Shown one piece after another: positions 788-21,898 of a stretch of DNA of 64,000 nt. Position 1 is the stretch's first letter, and every line of letters starts with the position of its first letter. A model generated the notes under the pieces. It saw only the letters and a list, made by a program, of their open reading frames with translations. It searched no databases and was not told the DNA's origin. The position numbers and the translations under genes were made by a program. This DNA comes from Rhodohalobacter mucosus (GTDB lineage Bacteria; Bacteroidota; Rhodothermia; Balneolales; Balneolaceae). The stretch is from assembly GCF_003150675.1 (NCBI RefSeq), contig NZ_QGGB01000006.1, positions 62,001-126,000 on the forward strand, written 5' to 3'.

Positions 788-2737
788 ATGAAAATCAGTA
801 CGATTCTTGACCAAATAGACATGGGCAGTATGGCACTACCCGAATTTCAGCGAGGTTACGTTTGGAATCGAAACCAGGTACGTGACCTCATGAACTCCCT
901 TTATAAACGTTACCCGGTTGGGAGTCTTTTAGTTTGGGAAACTAAGAGAGATAAAACGGCAGCAAGAGGACAGAGTAATGTAACTGATAACGTTAAAATG
1001 TTATTAGATGGCCAGCAAAGAATGACGTCATTATATGGAATCATTCGTGGCAAGGCACCGAAATTTTTTGACGGTGATCCTAAAGTTTTTACCTATCTGT
1101 ATTTTAATGTTGAAGAGGAAGTTTTCGAGTTTTACGGCCCTATGAAAATGGATGGAAATCCGAGTTGGGTTGACGTGACAGATTTAATGAAAAATGGCAT
1201 AGAACCCTTTATTTCTAAATTCTCTGAAGACCCTGAAAAAAGTAGCTCTTTAGGTTTATACATAAAAAGATTGAACCAAATTCATCAAGTTCAAGAAATT
1301 AACCTGCATGTAGAAGAAATAACCGGTGAAGATAAAGACACAGACACAGTTGTAGAAATCTTCAATAAGGTAAACAGTGGCGGAACTAAGTTATCAAAAG
1401 GTGATTTGGCATTAGCCAAAGTTTGCGGCTCATGGCCGGAAGCTCGTAATGAGTTGAAAGCACGTTTAGAAAGATGGAAAAAAGCAGGATTTGATTTTAA
1501 AATGGATTGGTACTTGCGTTGCATTAATGCTGTGGTAACTGGAGAAGCCAAGTTTCAGAACTTGGACGATATAACTACAAAAGAGTTTAAAGATGGATTA
1601 GAGACAGCTGAAAAAGCAGTTGATAAGCTTTTAAATACAATATCATCTAGGCTTGGATTAGATCATGACAGGGTTCTGGGGAGCGTATATTCCTTTCCTC
1701 TAATGTGCCGCTATATTTACAACAATGGAATGAGTTTAGGCGATCACCGCCAACGAGATCAACTGTTGTACTGGTATATCAATACGATGCTTTGGGGCCG
1801 ATATGCAGCATCTACCGAAAGTACGTTAGATAAGGATTTAGATTTGATTGAGGACACAGATCAACCTATTGAAAATCTTGTCCAGGAATTGCGACAGAAT
1901 CGAGGAGATTTGAAATTGTACGGTAGTGATTTCAAAGGATGGAGCCGGGGCGCTCGATTTTATCCAATGTTGTATATGTTGACACGGGTGTGGCATGCGA
2001 AAGACTGGGGCTCAGGTGATGAGTTATCTCACCATCTTCTGGGTAATTTATGTGGTCTACAACTGCACCATATATTTCCAAAGGCTTATTTGTATGATTC
2101 AGATTACGAAAGGAGGGAAGTAAATGCATTGGCAAATATGACTTTCTTAACCCAAGAAACGAACTTGGAGATTTCAGACAAGCCACCTATACAATATTTC
2201 CCAGAAATCGAAGCTAAACATCCAGGTGTTTTAGCTTCTCACTGGATTCCAATGGATGAAAATTTATGGAAGAAAGAGAACTTTAAAGATTTCCTTGTGG
2301 CACGGCAGGAACTTTTAGCCGAAGCAGCAAATAAGTTCCTGAATGAATTGAAAGAAGGGCATGTGGAAGAAAATGAATTTACACACGATGTCTTTTCGGA
2401 AAAAAGGGAACCACTATATATTCGAGTGGATAGTATCGCTGATCAGGAAGAAGAACAGTTGCTTTCAGATTTACAATCCTGGATGTCTGGACAAGGACTC
2501 CCGGAAGGTGAATGGGGTTATGAAATCTTAGATGAAAATGAAGAACCCCAAGCAATCATTGATTTAGCATGGCCAGATGGCGTGCAAAAATATTTAAGTC
2601 ATCCAGTTGCATTGCTTATTGATGAGGATGAAGAAACAAAGAAAATAGTCAATAAAGCAGGTTTCAGATATTTCACTTCTGCTGAGGAATTTAGAAAGTA
2701 CATTTTAGAGGAGATTTTAGTTTTAAATACGATCTAA
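788..2737 (+). CDS. DUF262/DUF1524 GmrSD-like protein with HNH motif
   Basis: This 649-residue protein has the DUF262 signature D-G-Q-Q-R at residues 74-78 after an N-terminal P-E-F-Q-R-G-Y-V-W motif, and a second conserved patch F-N-K-V-N-S-G-G. The DUF1524/HNH-type motif H427-H428-I-F-P-K432 lies in the middle. DUF262 is a ParB-like fold that uses nucleotide to control a nuclease, and DUF262-DUF1524 proteins (GmrSD, BrxU) are type IV restriction enzymes that cut modified phage DNA. The last 130 or so residues are an acidic extension I cannot assign. It is the first gene of the operon, 49 bases before the DUF499 gene. It could instead act only as a regulator or sensor of the downstream machinery. 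Confidence 0.85.
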   Translation: MKISTILDQIDMGSMALPEFQRGYVWNRNQVRDLMNSLYKRYPVGSLLVWETKRDKTAARGQSNVTDNVKMLLDGQQRMTSLYGIIRGKAPKFFDGDPKVFTYLYFNVEEEVFEFYGPMKMDGNPSWVDVTDLMKNGIEPFISKFSEDPEKSSSLGLYIKRLNQIHQVQEINLHVEEITGEDKDTDTVVEIFNKVNSGGTKLSKGDLALAKVCGSWPEARNELKARLERWKKAGFDFKMDWYLRCINAVVTGEAKFQNLDDITTKEFKDGLETAEKAVDKLLNTISSRLGLDHDRVLGSVYSFPLMCRYIYNNGMSLGDHRQRDQLLYWYINTMLWGRYAASTESTLDKDLDLIEDTDQPIENLVQELRQNRGDLKLYGSDFKGWSRGARFYPMLYMLTRVWHAKDWGSGDELSHHLLGNLCGLQLHHIFPKAYLYDSDYERREVNALANMTFLTQETNLEISDKPPIQYFPEIEAKHPGVLASHWIPMDENLWKKENFKDFLVARQELLAEAANKFLNELKEGHVEENEFTHDVFSEKREPLYIRVDSIADQEEEQLLSDLQSWMSGQGLPEGEWGYEILDENEEPQAIIDLAWPDGVQKYLSHPVALLIDEDEETKKIVNKAGFRYFTSAEEFRKYILEEILVLNTI

Positions 2738-2786: not shown

Positions 2787-5700
2787 ATGAAAAACTTACG
2801 TGAACTTTGTGAAGTAAGACAATCAGTTTTCGACAAATCAAGAAGAGACGTTACACTCGATATTTCTGATCTTATCGATGATGATATTGATACAGATCAA
2901 TTTTTTGCAGAAAACTTCATCACCGAGGGAATGAAGAGCCTATATACGGCTGTATTTAAACGCCTTGAAGGTAATTCTGATGATGGGATATTTAAGTTAA
3001 CACAGGCAATGGGCGGAGGTAAAACTCACAGTATGATTGCTGTTGGACTGTTGGCCAAATACCCTGAGTATCGAGAGAAAGTTATGGGAGATGTTTATAA
3101 AACCTCCTTTAAGGGTTCTGCAAAAGTAATCGGATTTACAGGACGCGAAAATCCTAAATACGGTATTTGGGGATATATTGCAGAACAGCTTGGCAAGAAA
3201 GATAAATTCAAGGAGTATTATGATCCATTGGAAGCACCCGGTCAAAGTGCATGGATTAATTTACTAAAAGGTGAACCGATAGTCATTCTTCTGGATGAGC
3301 TACCGCCATATTTCCAGGCAGCTCAGGCAAAACAAATTGGTGACGGGAATCTCGCAGATGTAACTACTCAGGCACTTTCTAATTTATTAGTAGCTATTGG
3401 GAAAAAAGAGCTATCCAATGTATCTCTTGTAATTTCGGATTTGAGTGCTGCCTATACTGAAGGATCGCAGATGATTCGCCAGATTATGGACGATTTTGAA
3501 TCGGAAACGAATCGACTGTCTAAAAATTTTACCCCGGTTCAGCAGAACACCGATGAGATTTATCACATTCTTAGAAAACGACTTTTCTCAAATGAATTTG
3601 ATGAAAAAGAGGTAGAAGAGATCGCTGATGCCTACGCGGAAGCTATTCGGGAAGCCAAGCAAATGGATATCAGCACGGAAACACCAGAAAAGTTCAAGTC
3701 TGCTGTGATGGATTCCTTTCCTTTTCACCCTGCGATTAGAGATCTCTACGCAAGGTTTAAAGAAAACCAGGGATTCATGCAGACCCGGGGTTTGATCCGA
3801 TTGATGCGAACTATTGCAGCTCGGATGTTTGATGAAAATGATGGATGGGCAGAACAGAGATATTTGATTGCACCGGACGACATCGACCTGAATAATCCGG
3901 ATACGCTCACAGAAATTAACAGTATCAACTCGAAACTCAATAATGCTATATCGAAAGATATTGCCGATCACGGTAAGGCTCTTGCAGAACAATTAGACAG
4001 TAAGTTTGGACACAACCTTTCCTCAAGGACTGCGAATCTGATCTTGATGTCATCACTGGCAACAGTCCAAAATGCTGTACGAGGTTTGGCGGATTCCGAA
4101 ATTATCCGAAATCTCTGTGGGCCGGATACGGATATATCCAAAATAAAAACGGAAGTGCTGGAGGAGTTAAAAACGAACTCCTGGTACCTTCACATGGATA
4201 ATACCGGCAAGTTTTTGTATAAAAATGTGCAGAATGTAGTAGCCAAGTTGAATGATTACGTTAAAGGATATAATGAAGAGAGTATCCGTCAGGAGATCAA
4301 AAAACAGCTTGAAGAACTGTTTCAGCCGCAGTTAAAGGATTGCTATCAAAACGTGTATGTATTGCCCTCGATTGATGAGATTGAGGTAGTGCAACAGAAA
4401 GTTTCATTGATTGTCTATCGCCCTCATCCCGGAGGACAACTGCATCCTGACTTACAGAAGCTTTATGATGACAATCAGTATCAAAACCGGATGTTGTTTT
4501 TGACGGGTGACAGCCATTCTATGAGGTCTATTTTTGATAATGCTGCAAACTTGAAAGCAGCGGGTGCAATTCTGGAAGAGTTTAGAAGAGAAAAAATGCC
4601 CAGTGGTGATCCGCAATTTGTAGAAGCGGAGAAGCTGCTTCAAAGTTTTGATCACAGGTTCAGAAGCTCAGTCCGTGAAACTTTCGTGAAGTTATTTTAT
4701 CCGACTAAGAACGGTCTAATGAATGCCAACTTCCAGATGCAGTTTCAGGGAAATAACTACAATGGCGAAGAACAGATTAAAAAGACATTAGAGGAGAAGC
4801 GTAAATTTACAACAGATATTTCTTCAGATAGTTTTGTGCGGCAAGCCGAATCGAAACTATTTATCGACCAAAAAACGCCCTGGTCAGAAATTATAAAACG
4901 CTCTGCAACTCGACCGGATTGGCCCTGGCATAAACCGGATGCTCTCGAGCAGTTGAAAGAGGAGATGATTCGAAAAGATCATTGGCGGCAGGAAGGTAAT
5001 TGGGTTTTGAAAGGTCCGTTTCCTGCCCCACCTACCGGAGTGAATATCAAACAGATTGCTCGTGATGATGATACTGGTGAAGCAACGTTGAAGATTACTC
5101 CACTGCATGGAGATACTGTGTATTTTGAAATTGATTCCAAAGCCACGGAAGCTTCTTTAGAACTGGACACGAGCCAGCCTTATAAAACTAAGGAGCTAAA
5201 ACTCTCATTCTTATGCGTAGATTCTACGGGTGAACATGATACCGGAGAACCGGTTGAGTGGCACAACAGTATCACTCTCAAATATCAGTTTTTTGGAGCC
5301 GGAAATGATAAAAAGCTGGAACTCAAAGCCGCTCCGGATGCCCCAATTAAATACACAACGGATGGATCAGACCCGTTGAATCATTGCGGGATTTATGACG
5401 GACCGATCACGATTCTTGATAATGTAAAATATGTGCTTGCTATCGCAGAAAAAAAAGGAATTCAGTCTGATAAACTCTCGATTCCGGTACCAACTGACCC
5501 ATCTAGTGTTGAAATTGACAAAGAAAAAGAGACAACCTGGCGAAAAAGGGTTAAGAGTGATTCCACTGCAGATACCTTTAAATGGTTAAAATCCATACGA
5601 AAGCACAATGTAAAACTTTCCGAAATTCATATTTCTGTAAACGGACAGCATTGGGTTTCTCTGGATTTTGATGAACGACTTATCCTGAATCATGACAAAC

Positions 5701-5858
5701 TTGAAAAAACTCTTGAATTCATCCAGACAAACCTTCTGGAAGAGGGGGAGGTAATCATTGATGCAGGAAAGTTGCATTTTGATTCCGGTCAACAATTTAT
5801 TGACTATGTAGAAGAGGAAAAAATTGAATATAAAGCCGGTGAAATTGAGCAAAGATAA
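2787..5858 (+). CDS. DUF499 AAA+-type ATPase of an anti-phage cluster
   Basis: This 1023-residue ATPase has Walker A G-G-G-K-T-H (about 76-81) and Walker B I-L-L-D170-E171. DUF499 (COG1483) proteins are large ATPases found with DUF1156 methylases in defence loci; their mechanism is not established. The C-terminal quarter is unusual: around residues 850-905 the pattern Y-T-T-D-G-S-D-P resembles the chitobiase/beta-hexosaminidase C-terminal beta-sandwich, which could be a binding module. The end overlaps the start of the DUF3780 gene, suggesting translational coupling. The likely role is energy-driven movement on, or remodelling of, DNA for the partner methylase and nucleases. Confidence 0.85.
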   Translation: MKNLRELCEVRQSVFDKSRRDVTLDISDLIDDDIDTDQFFAENFITEGMKSLYTAVFKRLEGNSDDGIFKLTQAMGGGKTHSMIAVGLLAKYPEYREKVMGDVYKTSFKGSAKVIGFTGRENPKYGIWGYIAEQLGKKDKFKEYYDPLEAPGQSAWINLLKGEPIVILLDELPPYFQAAQAKQIGDGNLADVTTQALSNLLVAIGKKELSNVSLVISDLSAAYTEGSQMIRQIMDDFESETNRLSKNFTPVQQNTDEIYHILRKRLFSNEFDEKEVEEIADAYAEAIREAKQMDISTETPEKFKSAVMDSFPFHPAIRDLYARFKENQGFMQTRGLIRLMRTIAARMFDENDGWAEQRYLIAPDDIDLNNPDTLTEINSINSKLNNAISKDIADHGKALAEQLDSKFGHNLSSRTANLILMSSLATVQNAVRGLADSEIIRNLCGPDTDISKIKTEVLEELKTNSWYLHMDNTGKFLYKNVQNVVAKLNDYVKGYNEESIRQEIKKQLEELFQPQLKDCYQNVYVLPSIDEIEVVQQKVSLIVYRPHPGGQLHPDLQKLYDDNQYQNRMLFLTGDSHSMRSIFDNAANLKAAGAILEEFRREKMPSGDPQFVEAEKLLQSFDHRFRSSVRETFVKLFYPTKNGLMNANFQMQFQGNNYNGEEQIKKTLEEKRKFTTDISSDSFVRQAESKLFIDQKTPWSEIIKRSATRPDWPWHKPDALEQLKEEMIRKDHWRQEGNWVLKGPFPAPPTGVNIKQIARDDDTGEATLKITPLHGDTVYFEIDSKATEASLELDTSQPYKTKELKLSFLCVDSTGEHDTGEPVEWHNSITLKYQFFGAGNDKKLELKAAPDAPIKYTTDGSDPLNHCGIYDGPITILDNVKYVLAIAEKKGIQSDKLSIPVPTDPSSVEIDKEKETTWRKRVKSDSTADTFKWLKSIRKHNVKLSEIHISVNGQHWVSLDFDERLILNHDKLEKTLEFIQTNLLEEGEVIIDAGKLHFDSGQQFIDYVEEEKIEYKAGEIEQR

Positions 5859-6462
5859 CGTTGAAATCATCGATTTCGGGTTTAAACCTGAAGAATCATT
5901 CCATCATTTTTTGGTTTTGATTCCAAAGGCTAAAGAACAGGATATAATCATTTTCGAGCAATTTGATTACGATGACCAGATCACTATCAACGCACTTCAA
6001 CACATGGTGACTGGAGCTGGTTCAACCGCAAAAATTTTGCTAAGTAGAAAAAAATGGGATCTCATCGAAAGTGAATTACGAGCTGAATTTAACAGAAGGC
6101 TTAAGGGTATGAATTTGAAATCAGCTAAGTGGAAAAAGGGAAAGAACTATCTGCACCGTCTTTTTGGAAAAGAGTTGATGGTATTGGCTTGGGCAATTGA
6201 AGATACAGATCCCGGAACCATTCCATTGGCCATTGAAAACTGGTTAGGGTTGCGACCTGAAGAACGATGGTGGTTATTCACGATGACGAACGCTGCCACA
6301 GGCCACGCGATTAGAGATCGCAATAAAGGCTGGCGAAAAGCTCTTCGGTTTGCCCTGACAGAAAATCCGGTGAGCAGCAGTGGTCTTGACTCCTATCTCA
6401 ATGAACACCGAAAAAACCTTCCACTTTTTGGTGATGAAGATACTATAGAAAGTTTTTCCTAA
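5839..6462 (+). CDS. DUF3780 protein of an anti-phage cluster
   Basis: The protein has about 207 residues, taking the GTG at 5839 as start; a TTG at 5824 would add five residues. Both starts lie inside the end of the DUF499 gene, so the two are probably coupled. It matches the small DUF3780 family that sits between DUF499 and DUF1156 genes, with features such as W-L-G-L-R-P-E-E-R-W-W-L-F and a conserved T-G-H-A. No catalytic motif is visible and the function is unknown. I infer a structural or regulatory subunit of the methylase-ATPase assembly. The next gene starts 93 bases later. Confidence 0.75.
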   Translation: MKLSKDNVEIIDFGFKPEESFHHFLVLIPKAKEQDIIIFEQFDYDDQITINALQHMVTGAGSTAKILLSRKKWDLIESELRAEFNRRLKGMNLKSAKWKKGKNYLHRLFGKELMVLAWAIEDTDPGTIPLAIENWLGLRPEERWWLFTMTNAATGHAIRDRNKGWRKALRFALTENPVSSSGLDSYLNEHRKNLPLFGDEDTIESFS

Positions 6463-6555
6463 TGTACGTTGGGTATTAGTAGAATGTCACTCTGGCCAAA
6501 GGACATTTATTTAATCACTGCTGCCTTGAATTTAAAGTAAATAGATTTAGAGTTG

Positions 6556-9500
6556 ATGAGCTACAGACGATCCTTTATTGAAGCACAATTTCCAGTTTCC
6601 AAGGTTTCGAAAGAGAGCTATAAAGAGCGGAAAGCCGGGGCGAGTCAAACCTTAACAGGTTTGGGTAAATGGTGGGGCCGTAAGCCACTTGTGCTGGTAC
6701 GCGCAACTATTTTTGGACTACTGATGCCTGCCAGTGATGATCCTCAAAAAGACCTGGAAATCTTCCTTAAAATTATGACGATGGATGATAAAGGTCTGCG
6801 AAGAAGACGTTCAAAGAATATGTCATCCAGGCAGTTATTTAGCTATGGTAATCAGGATATTTTTAAAGAGTTGGTTGGAAAAGAGGTTCAGGATTACACA
6901 GAATTGAAAGATCTGCTGGACAGGGATGACAGGTCAAAATTAAATGATATCCTGTTTGACAGGTTAAGTTATGATGACAAGCTTAGTTTTTGTGACCGGC
7001 CAGAGCAAATAGATGGGCCCTCTGAAGAGGCTTGGAATGAGATTAACGAGCATTTGGACACTTCTGCGACCAGTTTACAGGAACTGGTTCAACAGTTAGG
7101 GGAAAAGCAGTTTGGACGAACACCCCGAGTGGGGGATGCCTTTTGTGGTGGCGGGTCCATTCCCTTTGAAGCAGCCCGTATTGGGTGTGAAGCGTATGGT
7201 AGTGATTTGAATCCAGCAGCCGCGCTCCTAACGTGGGCCTCTCTAAACATTATTGGTGGTGGTGAAGAAGTTCAAGAGCGTGTACAAAAAGCCCAGGAAG
7301 AGGCCTTTGAAAAAGCTGACCGGCGGATTACCGAATGGGGCATTGAGCATAACGAAAAAGGATGGCGAGCAGATGCTTACCTGTATTGTGTGGAGGCCAA
7401 GAGCCCTGCAACCGGTTATTGGGTACCGTTGTCTCCAAGCTGGGTGATTAGTGAAAAGTATAAGGTCTGTGCTGTATTAGTACCTGATCATGAAAACAAA
7501 CGCTATAATTTTGAAGTAATAACCGGGGCTGATAAAGCAACAATGGACAAAGCCCGAGAGGGGACTGTACAAAACAGTGAAATGATCTGCCCGGAAACGG
7601 GTGATCGATTTGATATTTCCACCATCCGTGGGGATAACAAAGTGGATGGAGAACGGGTATATGGCCTTCGAATGTGGGAGAATGAGGATATCGTACCTCG
7701 CCCAGATGATGTGTTTCAGGAACGGCTTTACTGTATCCGGTATATCGAGGATATGTATGTTGTCCGAAAAAAAGGTAGCCTAATTGATGTTAAAGGGGAG
7801 GTTCTGCAAAAGTTGAACAAGGGTGATATTCTGACAAAAGAAAAGGTCGAAAATATCCGGAATCTGGAAGAACTTCTTGGGGAGGGAATTTTAAAAGAAG
7901 ATACACGCCGGCATTTCGTAGCACCAAATGAAAAAGACTTAAAAAGAGATGAACGTGTTCTTTATTTACTTCGAGAGAGATTTGATGAGTGGCAGAAGAA
8001 AGGATTTATCCCATCATCACAAATACCGGACGGTGATAAAACGGAAGAACCAAAAAGAACAAGAGGCTGGACACATTGGCATCATCTGTTTAATCCGAGG
8101 CAGCTGCTAACCCACGGATTATTCTTAGAATCATTTTTAGGCGAATCAGACCATTATGAAACTGAAATGTATGCCGCTGCTTGCTTATCAGTTGGTGCAG
8201 CTGTTGATAGGTTGTCACGCTTATGTGGTTGGGATAGTCACAAGTCCAAAGGGCCTGGTACATCAAGAAACGTGTATTTCAATCAAGCCTTAAATACTCA
8301 AATTATATATGGTTGTCGTAGCATAACCGGGCTTAAGTCGTTTTATGTTTTTGAAATTCCTGAAGAAGAGAAGCATGAAAATAGTAATAGAGTTATAACT
8401 GCGGATGCTCGAATTATTGATACAAATTCCGACTTCTGGATAACAGATCCACCGTATGCAGATGCAGTAAATTATCATGAACTTGGTGATTTTTTTGTAG
8501 CGTGGTATGAGAAGTTGATCAAGAAAGCCTTCAGTTTATGGTATGCAGACTCAAGAAGTGCACTTGCAGTGAAGGGTGAAGGAGAATCCTTCAAACAGAG
8601 TATGGTGGAGTGCTATAAAAACTTTACTGAACATATGCCTGATAACGGTGCACAGGTGGTCATGTTTACCCATCAGGACAGCAGCGTGTGGGCGGATCTT
8701 GCCCTGATTCTGTGGGCCTCCGGTCTGCAGGTTACCACTGCCTGGACCATTCAAACCGAAACAGATTCGGCCGGAATTAAAAAGGGTAATTATGTGCAGG
8801 GAACGGTCATCATGGTGCTTCGAAAACGGACGGGGGATGAGATTGGCTTTTTAAGCGACATACAAGCAGATGTAGAGTATGAAGTAGTGAAACAACTCGA
8901 CTATATGACTGCCCTGGATGATGAAGAAGATCCTAACTTTGGGGATGCAGATTACCAATTGGCAGCTTATGCTGCAGCACTACGTGTACTTACTCAGTAC
9001 AACTCCATCGAAGATATTGACGTGGAGTATGAGCTGTCGAAAGAGCGTAAAAAAGGCCAACCCTCCGAAATTGAGAAAATCATCGAAAGTGCAGTGGGTG
9101 TGGCGATGGATCACCTTGTGCCCAACGGTTTTGATGCGGTACAGTGGCGTAAACTCACTCCGGAAGAACGTTTCTACATCAAAGGACTCGAAATTCAGGG
9201 TCACGGGGAATACCGTACCGGCGTGTACCAGGAGATGGCTCGGGGGTATGGACTGAAGAGTTATAGCGAATACCTAAAATCGGGCCGTGCCAACGAAACC
9301 CGCCTGATGACCCCCATCGAATTTGATCGCAAAGAGTTGAACCGCGACGGATTCGGAAAAACCCTCGTTCGGCATGTACTGTTTGCAATACGGGAGGCTC
9401 ACAAAGAAGAGGATCCAATTGCAGGACGAAATTGGCTCAAAAATGAGCTGCCGGATTACTGGGGGCAACGCAAGCAGATCATTCACATTCTGGACTACAT

Positions 9501-9591
9501 GCTCCTTCGATGCACAGACATTCGCCACTGGGAAAAAGACATCAAGACGGTTCGGGTATTGCGCGGTTATCTTGAAAATGATACGGTCTAA
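6556..9591 (+). CDS. DUF1156 adenine-specific DNA methylase-like protein
   Basis: The protein has 1011 residues; ATG 6556 is preferred over the TTG at 6553. The N-terminus carries the DUF1156 pattern G-K-W-W-G-R-K-P. A SAM-binding motif lies at about D194-A-F-C-G-G-G-S with the acidic G-S-D-L-N-P strand after it, and the catalytic D631-P-P-Y634 of N6-adenine methylases is intact. The order (SAM motif before DPPY) and the large insert are typical of COG1743. The zinc-ribbon cysteines usual in that family are only partly visible here. It probably marks host DNA so that the nearby nucleases and helicase attack only unmodified DNA, though it could also sense phage DNA. It ends 11 bases before the helicase gene. 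Confidence 0.85.
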   Translation: MSYRRSFIEAQFPVSKVSKESYKERKAGASQTLTGLGKWWGRKPLVLVRATIFGLLMPASDDPQKDLEIFLKIMTMDDKGLRRRRSKNMSSRQLFSYGNQDIFKELVGKEVQDYTELKDLLDRDDRSKLNDILFDRLSYDDKLSFCDRPEQIDGPSEEAWNEINEHLDTSATSLQELVQQLGEKQFGRTPRVGDAFCGGGSIPFEAARIGCEAYGSDLNPAAALLTWASLNIIGGGEEVQERVQKAQEEAFEKADRRITEWGIEHNEKGWRADAYLYCVEAKSPATGYWVPLSPSWVISEKYKVCAVLVPDHENKRYNFEVITGADKATMDKAREGTVQNSEMICPETGDRFDISTIRGDNKVDGERVYGLRMWENEDIVPRPDDVFQERLYCIRYIEDMYVVRKKGSLIDVKGEVLQKLNKGDILTKEKVENIRNLEELLGEGILKEDTRRHFVAPNEKDLKRDERVLYLLRERFDEWQKKGFIPSSQIPDGDKTEEPKRTRGWTHWHHLFNPRQLLTHGLFLESFLGESDHYETEMYAAACLSVGAAVDRLSRLCGWDSHKSKGPGTSRNVYFNQALNTQIIYGCRSITGLKSFYVFEIPEEEKHENSNRVITADARIIDTNSDFWITDPPYADAVNYHELGDFFVAWYEKLIKKAFSLWYADSRSALAVKGEGESFKQSMVECYKNFTEHMPDNGAQVVMFTHQDSSVWADLALILWASGLQVTTAWTIQTETDSAGIKKGNYVQGTVIMVLRKRTGDEIGFLSDIQADVEYEVVKQLDYMTALDDEEDPNFGDADYQLAAYAAALRVLTQYNSIEDIDVEYELSKERKKGQPSEIEKIIESAVGVAMDHLVPNGFDAVQWRKLTPEERFYIKGLEIQGHGEYRTGVYQEMARGYGLKSYSEYLKSGRANETRLMTPIEFDRKELNRDGFGKTLVRHVLFAIREAHKEEDPIAGRNWLKNELPDYWGQRKQIIHILDYMLLRCTDIRHWEKDIKTVRVLRGYLENDTV

Positions 9592-9602
9592 ATCTTTACC
9601 TG

Positions 9603-12335
9603 ATGATCAAAAGATATTCCTCCAGATCGCACAAAATAGATGAATCGTTCTTAAACGAAAAGCTCCGGAGTGCGGAATCATATGATCGAATTGCCGGGTA
9701 TTTCAGCTCCTCAATTTTGGAAGTTGCGGGTGAGGCTATTGAACAGATTCCTGGTAAAGTACGTATCATATGCAATTCAGATCTACAACAGCAGGATGTA
9801 GCAACAGCCAGAGCTGCGGAAATGGCTATTCGTAAAGAGTGGACATCTAAAGTAGAAATGGAAAAGCTGGAGAAAGCAAACCCTCGCCTACGACGACTCT
9901 TTAAGTTGTTAAAAAGCGGTAAAATGGAAGTTCGTGTATTGCCTTCCGAAGAGTTTGGTCTGATCCACGGTAAAGCAGGGTTAATCACCCAAAAAGATGG
10001 ATCTCAGCTCGCCTTTATGGGGAGTACCAATGAAACGTATTCAGCCTGGAAGCTTAATTATGAAATGCTTTGGGAAGACAGTTCAGATGAAGCCATCGAC
10101 TGGGTAAAGAAAGAGTTTAACGGATTGTGGAACCATCCAAGCGCGGTACCTTTATCAGATTTTGTTATAGAAGATATTGGGAGAATCTCGAAGCGAGTTG
10201 TCATCCGAAAGGAGGAGTGGGAAGAGGATGGTGATCCTGCCGGAGCTGTCGTGGAGACACCGGTATACAGAAAAGAGTATGGGTTATGGCCCCATCAGAA
10301 ATACTTTGTGAAAGTAGCTTGGGATGAATTTCAATCCGGTCGAGGTGCGCGATTTGTGTTGGCTGATCAGGTAGGATTGGGAAAAACCATTCAACTAGCA
10401 CTCACAGCTCTTTTGATTGCTTTAAAAACAAAAGGACCTATTCTCGTTATTGCTCCAAAAACATTGATCTGGCAGTGGCAGGAAGAGATGAAACATCTCT
10501 TAAATATGCCATCAGCTGTTTGGGATGGAAGGCAATGGGTAGATGAAAACGGCATATCTTACCCCTCGTCAGGAAGGGAATCCGTAACAAACTGCCCCAG
10601 AAGGGTTGGTATTCTAAGTCAGGGATTAATTGTGCAAGCAGGAGAGATACCGGATTATCTACTAAATCAGCATTACGAATGTGTCATTGTTGATGAGTGC
10701 CACCGAGCCCGGCGGAAGAATTTGAAGAAAGATGGCGAAAATGAGCCGATTCAGCCTAACAATATGATGGACTTTCTTCTGAAGATCTCACCTAAAACAA
10801 ACAATATGTTACTGGCAACGGCTACTCCGGTTCAACTTTACCCAATTGAGGCTTTTGATCTGTTGACAATTTTAAATAGGGGATCGGATCATGTAATAGG
10901 TGATGAACTCTCTATTTGGAAGCGGGACAAAGCTTATACGTTGGAACTCATCCAGGGCAAGCAGGATGTGCCGGAAGACGTCAATGAAATCTGGGATTGG
11001 GTAAGAAACCCCCTTCCTCCTGCAAATGAAAAAGCACAGCTATTTGGGTTGATCCGGCGTCGGTTACAAAAAAGCCCAACAGATTCTGTAGCAACAGGAC
11101 CTGAATTCAATGATCTGAACCCTGCAGACAAGCGAAGGCTCCAATCCAATGTAGAGTCAATTTTTTCTGAACACAATCCGTTTATTCGGCACATCATACG
11201 ACGAGAAAGAAAATTTTTAGAAGAAACTATAGATCCCAAAACCAATGAACCTTTTTTGAAGCCTGTTCGTGTTCGTCTACATGGTGAGGCAGATCATGAA
11301 GCGGTCACCTTACCCGGTTATCTACGGGATGCTTACCAGAGTGCCGAAGAGTTTTGCGACGAGCTAGGAGAACGAATGCGAGCTGCCGGTTTCATGAGAA
11401 CGATGCTTCTAAGAAGAATGGGTAGTTCCATTCAGGCTGGAAAAAATACAGCTATAAAATTTCTTGGGAACCAGTTTCAAGATTTAGAAGCTGAGGAGGA
11501 AGATTATGTCAGTAGCATCAATGACACAGAAACCCAAAAGGTTGAGACTGAGGAAGATCAGTCGATCATTACCAGCGAAATGACAGATAAGGAGCGAGAA
11601 ATATTAATACGTCTGATCAGTCAGCTTGATTCGCATAAAGATAAGGATCCCAAATACGCCTCGTTGAAGGAGTATCTTTTTAAAAAGAATTGGTTACAGC
11701 TTGGTTGCATCGTTTTCTCCCAATATCACGATACGATCCGTTATATGGCCGACCAACTCTCTGAAGAATTTCCGGAGATCGAAATCGCTATATATGCCGG
11801 GGGCAATAAATCAGGGATCATTAAAAAAGGTGAATTTAAGCCCGAGAAAAAGGAGACGATTAAAGCGAGAGTTCAACGAGGTGAATTAAAACTTCTATTT
11901 GGTACTGATTCAGCCAGTGAGGGGTTGAACTTACAACGACTCGGTACCCTCATTAATCTTGATTTACCCTGGAACCCAACTCGTCTTGAACAGAGGAAAG
12001 GCCGTATTCAAAGAATTGGTCAAACACGAGATGTTGTGGATGTTTACAATATGAGATATAAAGACTCAGTGGAAGATCGTGTGCATGAACTATTATCAGA
12101 TCGTCTGGAAGGTATCTACGACCTATTTGGTCAACTTCCGGATGTGCTTGAGGATGTCTGGATAGAAGTGGCTATAGGTGAGAAGAAACAAGCTGAGAAA
12201 ATTATTAACCAGGTCCCAAAAGAGCATCCTTTTGAAATGAGGTATCACCAGATAGAAAATATCGATTGGGAAACCTGCGAAAGAGTTCTATTTGAGGATG
12301 ATAAGAAGGAGCAATTGTTAAAAGGGTGGAGCTAA
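9603..12335 (+). CDS. PLD-nuclease and SNF2-family helicase fusion
   Basis: This 910-residue protein begins with a phospholipase-D-like domain: H122-G-K124 followed by G-S-T-N-E-T, the one H-x-K motif I can see. A SNF2-type helicase follows with Walker A G258-L-G-K261-T262, motif II D364-E-C-H367 and motif VI Q797-R-K-G-R-I-Q-R-I-G-Q. PLD-SNF2 proteins are frequent in DISARM-like and other defence loci, where PLD domains can act as Mg-independent nucleases, usually as dimers when only one motif is present. It probably translocates on incoming DNA and cuts it. It sits directly after the methylase gene and four bases before the possible TTG start of the next gene. Confidence 0.9.
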   Translation: MIKRYSSRSHKIDESFLNEKLRSAESYDRIAGYFSSSILEVAGEAIEQIPGKVRIICNSDLQQQDVATARAAEMAIRKEWTSKVEMEKLEKANPRLRRLFKLLKSGKMEVRVLPSEEFGLIHGKAGLITQKDGSQLAFMGSTNETYSAWKLNYEMLWEDSSDEAIDWVKKEFNGLWNHPSAVPLSDFVIEDIGRISKRVVIRKEEWEEDGDPAGAVVETPVYRKEYGLWPHQKYFVKVAWDEFQSGRGARFVLADQVGLGKTIQLALTALLIALKTKGPILVIAPKTLIWQWQEEMKHLLNMPSAVWDGRQWVDENGISYPSSGRESVTNCPRRVGILSQGLIVQAGEIPDYLLNQHYECVIVDECHRARRKNLKKDGENEPIQPNNMMDFLLKISPKTNNMLLATATPVQLYPIEAFDLLTILNRGSDHVIGDELSIWKRDKAYTLELIQGKQDVPEDVNEIWDWVRNPLPPANEKAQLFGLIRRRLQKSPTDSVATGPEFNDLNPADKRRLQSNVESIFSEHNPFIRHIIRRERKFLEETIDPKTNEPFLKPVRVRLHGEADHEAVTLPGYLRDAYQSAEEFCDELGERMRAAGFMRTMLLRRMGSSIQAGKNTAIKFLGNQFQDLEAEEEDYVSSINDTETQKVETEEDQSIITSEMTDKEREILIRLISQLDSHKDKDPKYASLKEYLFKKNWLQLGCIVFSQYHDTIRYMADQLSEEFPEIEIAIYAGGNKSGIIKKGEFKPEKKETIKARVQRGELKLLFGTDSASEGLNLQRLGTLINLDLPWNPTRLEQRKGRIQRIGQTRDVVDVYNMRYKDSVEDRVHELLSDRLEGIYDLFGQLPDVLEDVWIEVAIGEKKQAEKIINQVPKEHPFEMRYHQIENIDWETCERVLFEDDKKEQLLKGWS

Positions 12336-12354
12336 TAATTTGGATAATTTCTCA

Positions 12355-13062
12355 ATGAAGAATTCTGATAGATTTATCTCTTTGTTTAAAAAACTGGAAA
12401 AGTTAGTAGCCGAACAATCCCAATTACCAAGAGATGAAAGTTTTAGCAAAATGTTAGCTGAGATTACAAGAGGAAATACTGTATTCAGGCACTATAAAGA
12501 ATATATCCAACAATATGCCAAACTTAGAAATGCTATAGTACACGAAAGTGTAAGCGATGATAAGGCGATAGCTGAACCTCACGATGAGGTATTATCTAGA
12601 CTGGAAGAAATTGTCAAAAAAATCGAGAATCCAGCTAAAGTCATCCCTAAATTTCAGGTTAAGATTGAATCGGTTAAACCTGGGACAATGATTTCAGATG
12701 CACTGGACCGTTTCTATAAAGGAAACTATTCGCAATTACCCGTAATCGAAGATGGAAAATTTTTTGACTTATTAACTACTGATGCGGTTGCAAGGTGGAT
12801 TGCAGCTCATAAAGAGAAAGGTGGATACTTATTAGAAAATGTAGCTATCCGTGAAGTATTACCTTACAAGGAAGTACAAGATAATTTTAGTTTCATTTCA
12901 AGAAGAACAACACTTCTTGATGTCCTAGAGATTTTTAGGAAAATCGATTATAAAGAGCAACCACTTGACGCTCTTCTGATTACGAATGATGGAAAAAAAG
13001 AACAAAAATTGATGGGTATTATAACTCATTATGATGTTTCAAAAATTTACTCACTAATATAA
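12355..13062 (+). CDS. HEPN-like and CBS-domain fusion protein
   Basis: The protein has 235 residues from ATG 12355; a TTG at 12340 would add five. The N-terminal helical part contains R58-N-A-I-V-H63, an R-x4-H arrangement in the context Y-A-K-L-R-N-A-I-V-H-E, as in HEPN ribonucleases. Two CBS-like repeats follow, about 103-160 (with I-S-D-A-L-D and Q-L-P-V-I) and 165-235 (ending in G-I-I-T-H-Y-D-V). CBS pairs bind adenosyl ligands such as AMP, ATP or SAM. My inference is a ligand-gated RNase that triggers dormancy when the system is activated or subverted. It lies only 19 bases past the helicase stop, so it is probably part of the operon. A non-catalytic regulator is the main alternative. 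Confidence 0.6.
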   Translation: MKNSDRFISLFKKLEKLVAEQSQLPRDESFSKMLAEITRGNTVFRHYKEYIQQYAKLRNAIVHESVSDDKAIAEPHDEVLSRLEEIVKKIENPAKVIPKFQVKIESVKPGTMISDALDRFYKGNYSQLPVIEDGKFFDLLTTDAVARWIAAHKEKGGYLLENVAIREVLPYKEVQDNFSFISRRTTLLDVLEIFRKIDYKEQPLDALLITNDGKKEQKLMGIITHYDVSKIYSLI

Positions 13063-13072
13063 TGCATTACTT

Positions 13073-13383
13073 ATGTCTGACATCAAGCTCTTCCAATTGA
13101 AAGACCAGGAAGTGACTGAACTCACAGGTTCTGCCGTAAAAATCGAAAAATCCCTCCAAGATCAGATTGAGAAAAATCTTGATACGTACCTGGGTGTTAG
13201 GTTTCTAGCTACCGAATATTCAACAGGCTCTAACCATGGCGGTAGGATTGATACGTTGGGTATTGATGAAAACGGCAGCCGGTCGACATCGAGTACAAGC
13301 GGTCGATGAATGAGAACGTGATAAGCCAGGGGTTGTTTTATCTGGATTGGATGATGGGTCATAAACTGAGTTTGAGCCTTTGA
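13073..13383 (+). pseudogene. Frameshifted DUF5655/NucS-like nuclease remnant
   Basis: The first frame encodes about 69 residues that match the start of DUF91/DUF5655-type proteins (L-G-V-R-F-L-A-T-E-Y-S-T-G, then G-G-R-I-D-T-L-G-I-D). At about 13279 the match jumps to the +2 frame, which continues I-E-Y-K-R (the E-x-K of a PD-(D/E)xK nuclease), N-E-N-V-I-S-Q-G-L-F-Y-L-D-W, and stops at TGA 13381-13383. One missing C in the G-S-P codons explains the shift. The family is far longer, so the 3' part is also lost. It follows the HEPN-CBS gene by 10 bases and is most likely an operon member that died. Confidence 0.7.
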
Positions 13384-14089: not shown

Positions 14090-14977
14090 CTACTTAAGCC
14101 TGACTTTTATTTTATGCTTTAGGCTTGGTGCCAGCATCTCTGTAAGGTTCAAGATGTTTCGTATGTGGCTTGGGGCATTGTACTTTGAATCAAAGTAAAT
14201 ACCTTCTTCAACTTTATTCCATTGCCCATCGTAAGTCTCAAGCTTATGCCGGGGTTTTGAGTTGATAAAGTATTTATTGCTTGTCGCATCAATTGGAAGC
14301 ATGCTTTGGTTCAAAAGCCCGTTTTCGAGAAACCATCGAATAACTGCTTCATCAAATTCAGTCCAGGAGTTGACCTCAAATTCATTTTCATCAATACGAA
14401 CGGAAGCAGGTTTGCTTTTGAACAAGCGATCTGCATGTTTGTACAAAACCTCTATTGCTACATGTTCGCTGGTAGTATCCTTATCGCCACCTTGATTGCT
14501 CACTTTCCTTCTCGAGCTATTAATCGGATTAGTTTTGATTATTTCATTAAAGAATCCTTCAATTATGTTTCTGTAATCTTGAAACTTGTTTAACAGAATT
14601 CTTTTGAACTCCGGCAGATTTTGATCTTCAAGCAAACTGTCAACTTCACTTGTTGTTTTGTCAAGTTGCCTGCCATACTTATCCAGTACAGTTTCTCTTC
14701 TCACTTTATGTCTTTTGGAGACTGCCTTGGTAGCATCAACCCGGGAAAGTCCTCTTTTCTTAACTAAATGTATCACTTCCAATATATGCTGAAGAGCGGT
14801 TGGGATACTGCTTGGCAAAGAAGGGAATAGCTGAGAGGGGCTTACTGTGGGTGTTAATTCTTTATTTTGAAATAATTCTCTTCTCAGAATTGAGTTTGGG
14901 GTATCTCCGAAGTCTTCAATTTTGTTAAGGAGGTATTGCCGGACCTCTTCATCGATCTCGATATTATAATATTTCAT
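14090..14977 (-). CDS. DNA-binding protein with SeqA-like N-terminus
   Basis: This 295-residue protein has residues 1-35 resembling the SeqA N-terminal oligomerisation/ribbon-helix-helix-like motif (I-E-I-D-E-E-V then S-I-L-R-R-E-L-F). SeqA represses replication initiation by binding hemimethylated GATC. The middle has an alpha-helical segment with V-K-K-R-G-L-S-R-V-D-A-T that could be a DNA-binding helix-turn-helix. The C-terminal part (about 195-290) contains W-T-E-F-D-E-A-V and ends in a basic strand; I do not recognise it. It is much longer than SeqA and lacks a recognisable SeqA DNA-binding domain. It is probably a DNA-binding regulator of the pair with the downstream gene. Confidence 0.55.
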   Translation of the reverse strand: MKYYNIEIDEEVRQYLLNKIEDFGDTPNSILRRELFQNKELTPTVSPSQLFPSLPSSIPTALQHILEVIHLVKKRGLSRVDATKAVSKRHKVRRETVLDKYGRQLDKTTSEVDSLLEDQNLPEFKRILLNKFQDYRNIIEGFFNEIIKTNPINSSRRKVSNQGGDKDTTSEHVAIEVLYKHADRLFKSKPASVRIDENEFEVNSWTEFDEAVIRWFLENGLLNQSMLPIDATSNKYFINSKPRHKLETYDGQWNKVEEGIYFDSKYNAPSHIRNILNLTEMLAPSLKHKIKVRLK

Positions 14978-19915: not shown

Positions 19916-21898
19916 TTAAAGTCCGAACGGATAGGTTTCCGGTACGCCTTTTTCTTTCTTTCGCGGGGGGAGCGGGTTGATGGCGCGGGTTTCATCAAAC
20001 CAGATGTATTCGTCAAACTGGTTCGACAGCGACGCCTGAAAGTAGTGGCTCTGCATTTCGGTACCCGGACGATAGATGACGCCGATGGCGCGTTCCAGCC
20101 GGCTTTTCTCCATCTCGCGTGTAAGCTCTCCGTGGCCTTCTTTGTGCAGCGGAAGCAGGAAGTTGTCGTGTTCTGCCCGGTGCATCAGGCGCTCGAGGCT
20201 CTCATTGTGTGAGGGACGCACGTCCATTACCCGCATCCGGCCGCCCCAGTTGTGGGCCGCGGCCACGGTTCCGTGATCGGTTCCAAACCCGATGTTATAG
20301 GCGTCCTCTTCGAAATGCTCTTTGGCGAGCTGACCGATATTGTGCTCTCCGCGGGCGCCCATCTCTGTGGCGCGTGCGTCACCAACGTGTGAATTGTGTG
20401 CCCACACCACCGCTTTGGCATCGTCACCGCGGTGGTCCATCAGTGAGGTGAGCGTTTTAAACATATGGGTGTCGCGCAGGTTCCAGCTCGACTGCGCCCC
20501 GAAGTACATGCTGCGGTAATATTTCTCCGCATTGGCTACGAGCCGTGCATTCTGCAGGGCATCCAGGTAGCGGGTTCCGTCCTGCTCCGCTTTTTCAATG
20601 CGGCGGGTCAGGATCCTGCGCAGCATCTCCGTGACCTCTTTTTCACATTTGCGGTACTCGTCGCTCATGGCGGCCGCGCCGTAGCTGGTCGGGTCGTTTT
20701 CGTAGGGCGACAGGCAGCCGTAGCGGTTGCGCGCAATCTCGGCGAGCGAGGGATCAAGATCTTCCAGGTAGTCAACGATCGCTTTGATGGAGGAGAACAT
20801 GCTGTAGAAATCGAGTCCGTACACCCCGGTTCTGCTGTCCGGATCAGCGGTTCCCTCGTTGTACTCCTTCAGCCATTTCACAAAACGCAGCACCTCGCCG
20901 TTGTTCCACATCCAGGTGGGGAACCGGGTGAACGGTTCCTCCTCGGGAAGCGGAATGTCCAGATCCCTCACAAACCGGTCGATATGCGCGGCATCCGGCC
21001 AGTCGGCCTCCAGCGATACGATATTAAACCCTTTCTCTTCAATCAGCTTCCTGGTGATCTGTTCACGCAGCCGGTAGAACTCGGAGGTTCCGTGCGTGGC
21101 CTCTCCGATCAGCACTACCCGCGCGTCGCCGATCCGCTCCAGAAGGGGAGAGAGGTCTGCGCTTTCGGGATTGTTGAATGGTTCTGCGGCATCGTTGATG
21201 CGGTCGGTGACGCTCTTTTTCTTTTTGGGGGGAGATTCCTCTTTCGCCTCGCGGTTCACCCAGCCGCCCGTGCCGATCAGCGGCACAAACTGAACCCGTC
21301 CAAGGTCCCGCTCGCTGAATTGCCCGTTGTTGCGTGTAGTGAGAACCAACCGCTGCGTCCGTATCTGGGAACCAACCGGGATCACCATGCGGCCGCCCGG
21401 GGCCAGCTGCTCCTTCAGATCCTCCGGTATCCGGGGGCCTCCAGCCGCCACATTGATGGCGTCAAACGGAGCGTGCTCGGGCCAGCCTTCCGTACCGTCA
21501 CCGTGCAGAATATAAATGTTATCGTAGCCAAGCCTTTCAAACCGTTTGCTTGCGGACTCTGCAAGCGATTTGTGCCGTTCAATGGTATACACCTCTTTTC
21601 CCAGTTCACTCATCACCGCAGCCGCATATCCGGATCCGGTACCCACATCCAGCACCTTCTCATCTTCGCGGATATCCAGAATCTCCGCCGCCAGGGCCAC
21701 GATGTAGGGCTGCGAGATGGTTTGCTCTTCATCGATCGGCAACGGCGCGTCCCGGTAGGCGTACTCAACCAGATCCTTTGAGATAAACTCCTCTCTCGGG
21801 ACCTCCATCATCGCATCAAGTACCCGCTGATTGGTTATCCCTCTTGCTTTCAGCTGTTTTTCCAGCATCTCCTGTTTTTGATCCAGTAAGTCAACCAT
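19916..21898 (-). CDS. Protein-isoaspartate methyltransferase fused to erythromycin esterase-like domain
   Basis: This 660-residue fusion has residues 1-215 as an L-isoaspartyl protein methyltransferase (Pcm) with the SAM motif V82-L-D-V-G-T-G-S-G90 and the family motif T-I-S-Q-P near 60-64. Pcm repairs damaged Asp/Asn residues. After a basic linker (about 220-240), the rest is an erythromycin esterase/EreA-like domain with G-E-A-T-H-G-T near residue 265, E-A-D-W-P-D-A and W-A-H-N-S-H. EreA proteins hydrolyse macrolide lactones, but many relatives have other, unknown substrates. Both halves look intact. Fusion suggests a stress-related role rather than antibiotic resistance as such. An ATG start is used, and 7-nt arrays lie downstream. 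Confidence 0.9.
   Translation of the reverse strand: MVDLLDQKQEMLEKQLKARGITNQRVLDAMMEVPREEFISKDLVEYAYRDAPLPIDEEQTISQPYIVALAAEILDIREDEKVLDVGTGSGYAAAVMSELGKEVYTIERHKSLAESASKRFERLGYDNIYILHGDGTEGWPEHAPFDAINVAAGGPRIPEDLKEQLAPGGRMVIPVGSQIRTQRLVLTTRNNGQFSERDLGRVQFVPLIGTGGWVNREAKEESPPKKKKSVTDRINDAAEPFNNPESADLSPLLERIGDARVVLIGEATHGTSEFYRLREQITRKLIEEKGFNIVSLEADWPDAAHIDRFVRDLDIPLPEEEPFTRFPTWMWNNGEVLRFVKWLKEYNEGTADPDSRTGVYGLDFYSMFSSIKAIVDYLEDLDPSLAEIARNRYGCLSPYENDPTSYGAAAMSDEYRKCEKEVTEMLRRILTRRIEKAEQDGTRYLDALQNARLVANAEKYYRSMYFGAQSSWNLRDTHMFKTLTSLMDHRGDDAKAVVWAHNSHVGDARATEMGARGEHNIGQLAKEHFEEDAYNIGFGTDHGTVAAAHNWGGRMRVMDVRPSHNESLERLMHRAEHDNFLLPLHKEGHGELTREMEKSRLERAIGVIYRPGTEMQSHYFQASLSNQFDEYIWFDETRAINPLPPRKKEKGVPETYPFGL

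Follow-up and report, generated by a model that had tools for sequence, protein, structure and literature searches.

The HEPN-CBS Gene and Its Operon

The window considered here is a stretch of 64,000 nt from Rhodohalobacter mucosus (contig NZ_QGGB01000006.1, positions 62,001–126,000, forward strand). At 12355..13062 (+) it contains an ORF, judged to be real, for a 235-amino acid protein with a predicted N-terminal HEPN-like domain and a C-terminal pair of CBS repeats. The ORF opens 4–19 bp past the stop codon (at 12335) of a PLD-helicase gene, the distance depending on the start codon. Translation from ATG 12355 yields the 235-residue protein; translation from an alternative TTG at 12340 yields 240 residues, and begins 8 nt after GGGTGGAG (12324..12331, +), by its sequence a possible ribosome-binding site. 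The choice is left undecided, because homologue N-termini (MKNSDRF / MRNSDRF) match the protein at the ATG 12355 residue, whereas it is the TTG that has the better ribosome-binding site in front of it. No promoter- or terminator-like sites stood out.

Five defense genes lie directly upstream on the same strand, either overlapping or separated by gaps of 4–91 bp, so the initial annotation was correct in placing the gene at the end of a defense operon. The first encodes a GmrSD-like nuclease (DUF262/DUF1524; 788..2737, +) resembling HEC-05 of PADLOC. It is followed by genes for a DUF499 AAA+ ATPase (2787..5858, +), a DUF3780 protein (5824..6462, + as the ORF is listed; the true start may be later), a DUF1156 N6-adenine methyltransferase (6553..9591, +; NF042963, 1392 bits), and a PLD(HKD)-SNF2 helicase, the primary nuclease effector of the cassette (9603..12335, +; NF042964, 1284 bits). 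The DUF499, DUF1156, PLD helicase and standalone DUF3780 proteins encoded at this locus each score above a Pfam or NCBIfam cut-off, with DUF499 and DUF3780 falling under the stricter equivalog cut-offs of NCBIfam. A DUF499-DUF3780-DUF1156-PLD helicase cassette is listed as anti-phage by both NCBIfam and PADLOC, and the four genes preceding the HEPN-CBS gene make up the Type-2 BREX-related (BR) system (PMC12839542).

The HEPN-CBS gene differs from this cassette in base composition: its GC content is 33.5%, whereas the four cassette genes have 41–45% and the remainder of the window ~50%, and it is below that of all other window genes measured (38–57%). This suggests that it was acquired separately.

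Several other window genes are worth recording. The HEPN-CBS gene is followed by a 78-amino acid frame (13073–13309, +; MSDIKLFQLKDQEVTELTGS...GGRIDTLGIDENG) that resembles the disrupted beginning of a gene of nuclease type but has no Pfam match. At 14090–14977 (−) is a gene for a 295-amino acid protein whose N-terminal domain is SeqA (Pfam, 30.7 bits; cut-off 23), here in an organism that is not a gammaproteobacterium; no match to the SeqA DNA-binding domain is seen at the C-terminus. An apparent fusion of protein-L-isoaspartate methyltransferase-like and erythromycin-esterase-like domains, as read from the sequence, is encoded at 19916–21898 (−).

The N-Terminal Domain

The initial annotation described an R58-N-A-I-V-H63 motif in a helical N-terminus, joined to two CBS repeats. 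This arrangement is borne out by the ORF itself, by an AlphaFold2 model of the whole protein (built from 57 sequences, pLDDT 92.8), and by a Pfam CBS match (E 7e-12, in two stretches). The model has helices at residues 3–22, 30–40, 42–46, 48–61, and 77–91, followed by the CBS pair. The predicted RNase catalytic motif, R58-N59-A-I-V-H63 (12526..12543, +), lies at the end of helix 48–61 and the start of the loop that leads to helix 77–91; the HEPN motif has been placed at the end of helix 3 or the start of the next loop (PMC3710099).

HEPN motifs are defined as R-x4-6-H with a polar residue following the arginine (PMC3710099), and the initial annotation had taken R-x4-6-H as a sign of a HEPN ribonuclease. 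In its bare form it is not one: the motif is at chance level, occurring in 48% of 379 proteins of 180–300 amino acids. Stricter forms are progressively rarer in the same proteins (R[NDH]x3-5H, 11%; RNx3H, 1.1%; LRNx3H, 0.3%), and it is the exact form, together with its conservation, that carries weight. R58, N59, and H63 are 100% conserved in 36 relatives, including the polar residue (N, D, or H) expected after the arginine, which rules out a chance motif in spite of the high bare-motif frequency. The initial proposal that R58 and H63 would prove invariant thus holds in this set. The three residues between N59 and H63 are by comparison variable (AIV, TIV, SLV, VLV, MLV, LLV, VVA, AIS, LLT, CLA), and the only other fully invariant positions in the protein are P75 and G213.

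The 36 relatives were collected mainly by profile (HMM) and protein-similarity searches; two (L010 and L011) are instead tblastn matches to the window protein in phage records. The search profile was itself built from sequences containing RNAIVH, yet scoring spanned the whole protein, so that motif variants would still be detectable. R58, N59, and H63 are also invariant in a small alignment. Conservation in 80 loci from a genome scan (see below) was not counted, since the use of LRNAIVH in one of the search patterns makes the argument circular.

The HEPN-like domain covers residues 1–97 (12355..12645, +). Modeled alone, it is predicted to form a four-helix domain (pLDDT 87.0). Among the top nine rows of a VIA-align structural comparison are four HepT and two HepS structures, the HEPN domain of sacsin, and Csm6, at Z scores of 6.5–7.3; the HepT structures align at Z 7.0–7.3, with rmsd 3.2–3.3 Å over 89–91 of the 97 residues. 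A plain Foldseek search with the HEPN domain alone gave nothing significant (best E 0.6, with sacsin HEPN at rank 23). As Z scores for helical bundles go, 7 or so is modest, and a sequence-profile test was therefore added. Compared with a profile of 16 HepT proteins from related genomes, the N-terminal alignment scored 30.9 (probability 61%, pairwise E 8e-5), versus a maximum of 20.9 for 100 column-shuffled controls and 17.1 for a reversed one, and RNxxxH falls in register with the HepT motif. Weak matches to Pfam HEPN families are scattered through the 57 family members (HepT-like in 14, HEPN_RiboL-PSP in 12, Apea in four, Cthe2314 in two); on the window protein, HEPN_RiboL-PSP (PF18735) scored 18.3 bits, below its gathering cut-off of 28.4. 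Taken with the position of the motif, the fold comparison and the HepT profile match support a HEPN identity for the N-terminal domain, as initially proposed, with evidence for the fold that is moderate but not overwhelming.

The CBS Pair

The first CBS repeat covers approximately residues 94–152 (12634..12810, +), within the Pfam match, and the second approximately residues 165–235 (12847..13059, +), as delimited from the AlphaFold2 model and VIA-align. In structural comparison the pair matches other CBS pairs at Z scores of up to 15.0, and among the best are nucleotide-binding AcuB structures with AMP, ADP, or Ap4A, at Z 14–15. The second repeat contains a putative nucleotide-site motif, G221-I-I-T-x-x-D227 (13015–13035, +), in which D227 is an aspartate in 90 of 92 relatives (98%) and T224 a threonine in 69 of the 92. 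In nucleotide-binding CBS pairs, this aspartate contacts the ribose. In the first repeat the threonine is present (T141), but the position corresponding to D227 is an alanine (A144) instead of an acidic residue. With a conserved site motif in one repeat and no acidic residue in the other, the simplest inference is that each protein has one adenine-type nucleotide site.

As to the ligand, the evidence does not favor SAM over AMP, ATP, Ap4A, or c-di-AMP. SAM had been put forward in the initial annotation, but nothing specific speaks in its favor. No nucleotide-signal synthase was recognized in the operon.

Distribution and Neighbors of Relatives

A search of plasmids with the single protein found relatives at ~31% identity, and the matches of the two best spanned 95% or more of the query. 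Scanning 84,980 species by sequence pattern turned up 288 relatives, and 80 of these loci were retrieved. In profile searches of whole genomes, the gene was found in 26 of 348 from the Enterococcus phylum, seven of a sample of 251 Chloroflexota, and one of 274 from the class of Cupriavidus; within the family to which the window belongs, it was found in the window's genome and one other. IMG/VR viral contigs had no relatives with either single-protein or alignment queries. Apparent phage copies were rejected, because the matching records hold chromosomal genes (fhs, lspA, pyr). The records concerned are three unverified GenBank wastewater “phage” entries (L010, L011, and L012; OR846607, OR849199, and OR847038) with fhs, lspA, rluD, a pyr operon, and carA/carB, and these bacterial chromosome genes identify them as host contigs labeled phage. 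One further match (G180) was dropped as an unrelated cation-efflux-like protein.

For the most part the relatives are Bacillota genes that stand alone on the chromosome, outside visible defense islands. In the tree, these copies account for most of one clade of 47 rows (support 99/96), and the window protein is outside it. The Enterococcaceae copies adjoin lspA in every locus inspected, and pyr genes. A Tn-seq study classes EF1724 of E. faecalis, a CBS protein, as important for growth (PMC7701990); from locus numbering and gene order, this is probably the HEPN-CBS gene.

Copies outside the Bacillota clade are sporadic, and several are near defense genes. The copy closest to the window gene by tree path (G360), from the same bacterial family, is directly upstream of BrxA-BrxB-BrxC genes and divergent from them. 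Others adjoin a type III restriction-modification methylase/Res pair (L018), the HsdR gene of a type I system (L013), an OLD-like TOPRIM ATPase (L014), an Eco57I-type methylase (L043), or, on a plasmid, SIR2 and DUF87 proteins (L006); two (L016 and L037) have ordinary neighbors. The brxA-brxB-brxC genes beside the nearest relative (L102:10639-16106, G360:C1), in another genus of the family, are Type-1 BREX-like, with Schlafen/AlbA_2-type and tyrosine-recombinase-like genes nearby. Some plasmid copies are damaged: the one on Corynebacterium glutamicum pBL90 (L006) is a split frame, and two on Rhodococcus plasmids (L007 and L008) are truncated and adjoined by IS21 elements.

The initial annotation also suggested that homologues might cluster with DUF1156 genes. 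They do not: none of the 80 fetched loci has a DUF1156, DUF499, or DUF3780 gene beside it, within as much as 10 kb to either side, contig ends permitting. Conversely, the DUF1156 family cut-off was exceeded in three of 316 genomes in a phylum sample, and only one of these three, the window's own, has the HEPN-CBS gene. The two results together rule out a tight link to DUF1156 and indicate that the HEPN-CBS family does not belong to the cassette.

Possible Functions

The reading preferred here, with about an even chance of being right, is that the gene encodes a HEPN RNase gated by nucleotide binding to its CBS pair, and is an independent defense gene, comparable to the DS-11 system described below, appended to the BR operon as its last gene. 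The product would be a soluble endoribonuclease controlled by the CBS pair at its C-terminus. It would dimerize in the manner of HEPN RNases, with R58, N59, and H63 forming the RNA-cutting site, and an adenine-type nucleotide at the single conserved CBS site would switch the RNase on or off. As a single-gene module at the end of the operon it would be co-transcribed with the cassette, and a change in a nucleotide pool or signal could cause the RNase to stop or slow the infected cell.

Three other explanations have to be weighed against this. The gene might be a dedicated back-up effector, with the DUF499/helicase machinery of the cassette, or the turnover of DNA and nucleotides that it causes, making the signal read by the CBS pair, and the RNase killing or stalling the cell if restriction fails. 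Its place on the same strand 4–19 bp past the helicase gene would suit this, as would the position of its nearest relative, which immediately precedes a BREX operon but is on the opposite strand from it, and a survey of BREX and BREX-related loci counts HEPN RNases among their back-up effectors (PMC12839542), although the word CBS does not appear in its main text. The absence of cassette genes from all 80 loci, the absence of the gene from two of three genomes with DUF1156 family members in the phylum sample, and the low GC content, which suggests separate acquisition, make such dedication unlikely, although a “last defense” role for the BREX-related operon, as first proposed, is possible. At the other extreme, the protein might have no part in defense, and be an RNA regulator (for example, a nucleotide- or c-di-AMP-responsive factor for mRNA or tRNA processing), as the Bacillota solo copies may be, with its place in the operon an accident. 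The solo copies are widespread, with 26 of the 348 sampled Enterococcus-phylum genomes having the gene; those of Enterococcaceae keep a constant neighbor in lspA in the loci inspected; and the growth importance of EF1724 would also fit. The window copy, however, is outside the main Bacillota clade, and more than one sporadic copy has restriction or BREX genes nearby, so that this too is improbable as an account of the window gene. The HEPN domain might, finally, be catalytically inactive or an RNA-binding module, the protein acting by binding, as certain HEPN families do (PMC3710099); but R58, N59, and H63 are among the five most conserved positions, which would be unexpected in a dead enzyme, and this is very unlikely.

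Beyond the preferred reading of a nucleotide-gated, independent defense RNase, a broader one can be offered tentatively, as a lesser possibility: that a broad HEPN-CBS family, solo and perhaps important for growth in many Bacillota, has on separate occasions supplied BREX loci and BREX-related loci with a nucleotide-gated RNase as back-up. If so, recruitment would link a housekeeping nucleotide-sensing RNase to phage defense, and the combination of adenine-nucleotide sensor and RNA-cutting enzyme would serve both in phage-defense loci and in the ordinary chromosomes of Enterococcus and Bacillus relatives.

Comparison with Known Systems

Against the Type-2 BREX-related system, the HEPN-CBS gene is not a core part, and members of its family do not as a rule accompany the system.

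HepT-like toxins (PF01934) share with the window protein a helical fold (VIA Z about 7) and an RNxxxH motif in register. Unlike HepT, the window protein has no MntA partner, lacks the tyrosine of the HepT H-x-Y, and is fused to CBS repeats; Pfam HepT matches to its relatives are weak (best E 0.005).

HEPN-CBS fusions have been described before, for example in Pelobacter, and nucleotide-controlled RNA decay proposed for them (Anantharaman et al., 2013; PMC3710099). Some of those also carry an HD domain, which the window protein does not.

The closest functional parallel is DS-11, a single protein with CBS and HEPN domains that protects E. coli from phage (DefensePredictor, 2026; PMC13092281). 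Its defense is abolished by HEPN catalytic mutants and by the CBS mutation Y157A, a residue predicted to touch adenine; in the published model CBS regulates the HEPN RNase, with the controlling nucleotide left open. The window protein likewise combines CBS and HEPN in one chain, but it matches the DS-11 model (NF053863) at only 22.2 bits, and in the CBS region alone, versus a curated equivalog cut-off of 260, which rules out identity with DS-11. The DS-11 model is 305 amino acids long, and the CBS part of the 235-residue window protein aligns to model positions 76–192, so that the two differ in length and may differ in domain order. A search of 274 genomes of the Cupriavidus class found no DS-11 members. 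By analogy, the window protein would work like DS-11 without being of its family.

The HEPN-CBS design is therefore already known, with one such protein a tested phage-defense system. New are the size and spread of this family, its solo Bacillota copies, and its occurrence beside BREX and BREX-related operons. The family offers many small (about 235 amino acids), conserved natural variants in which the ligand and the RNA target can be examined.
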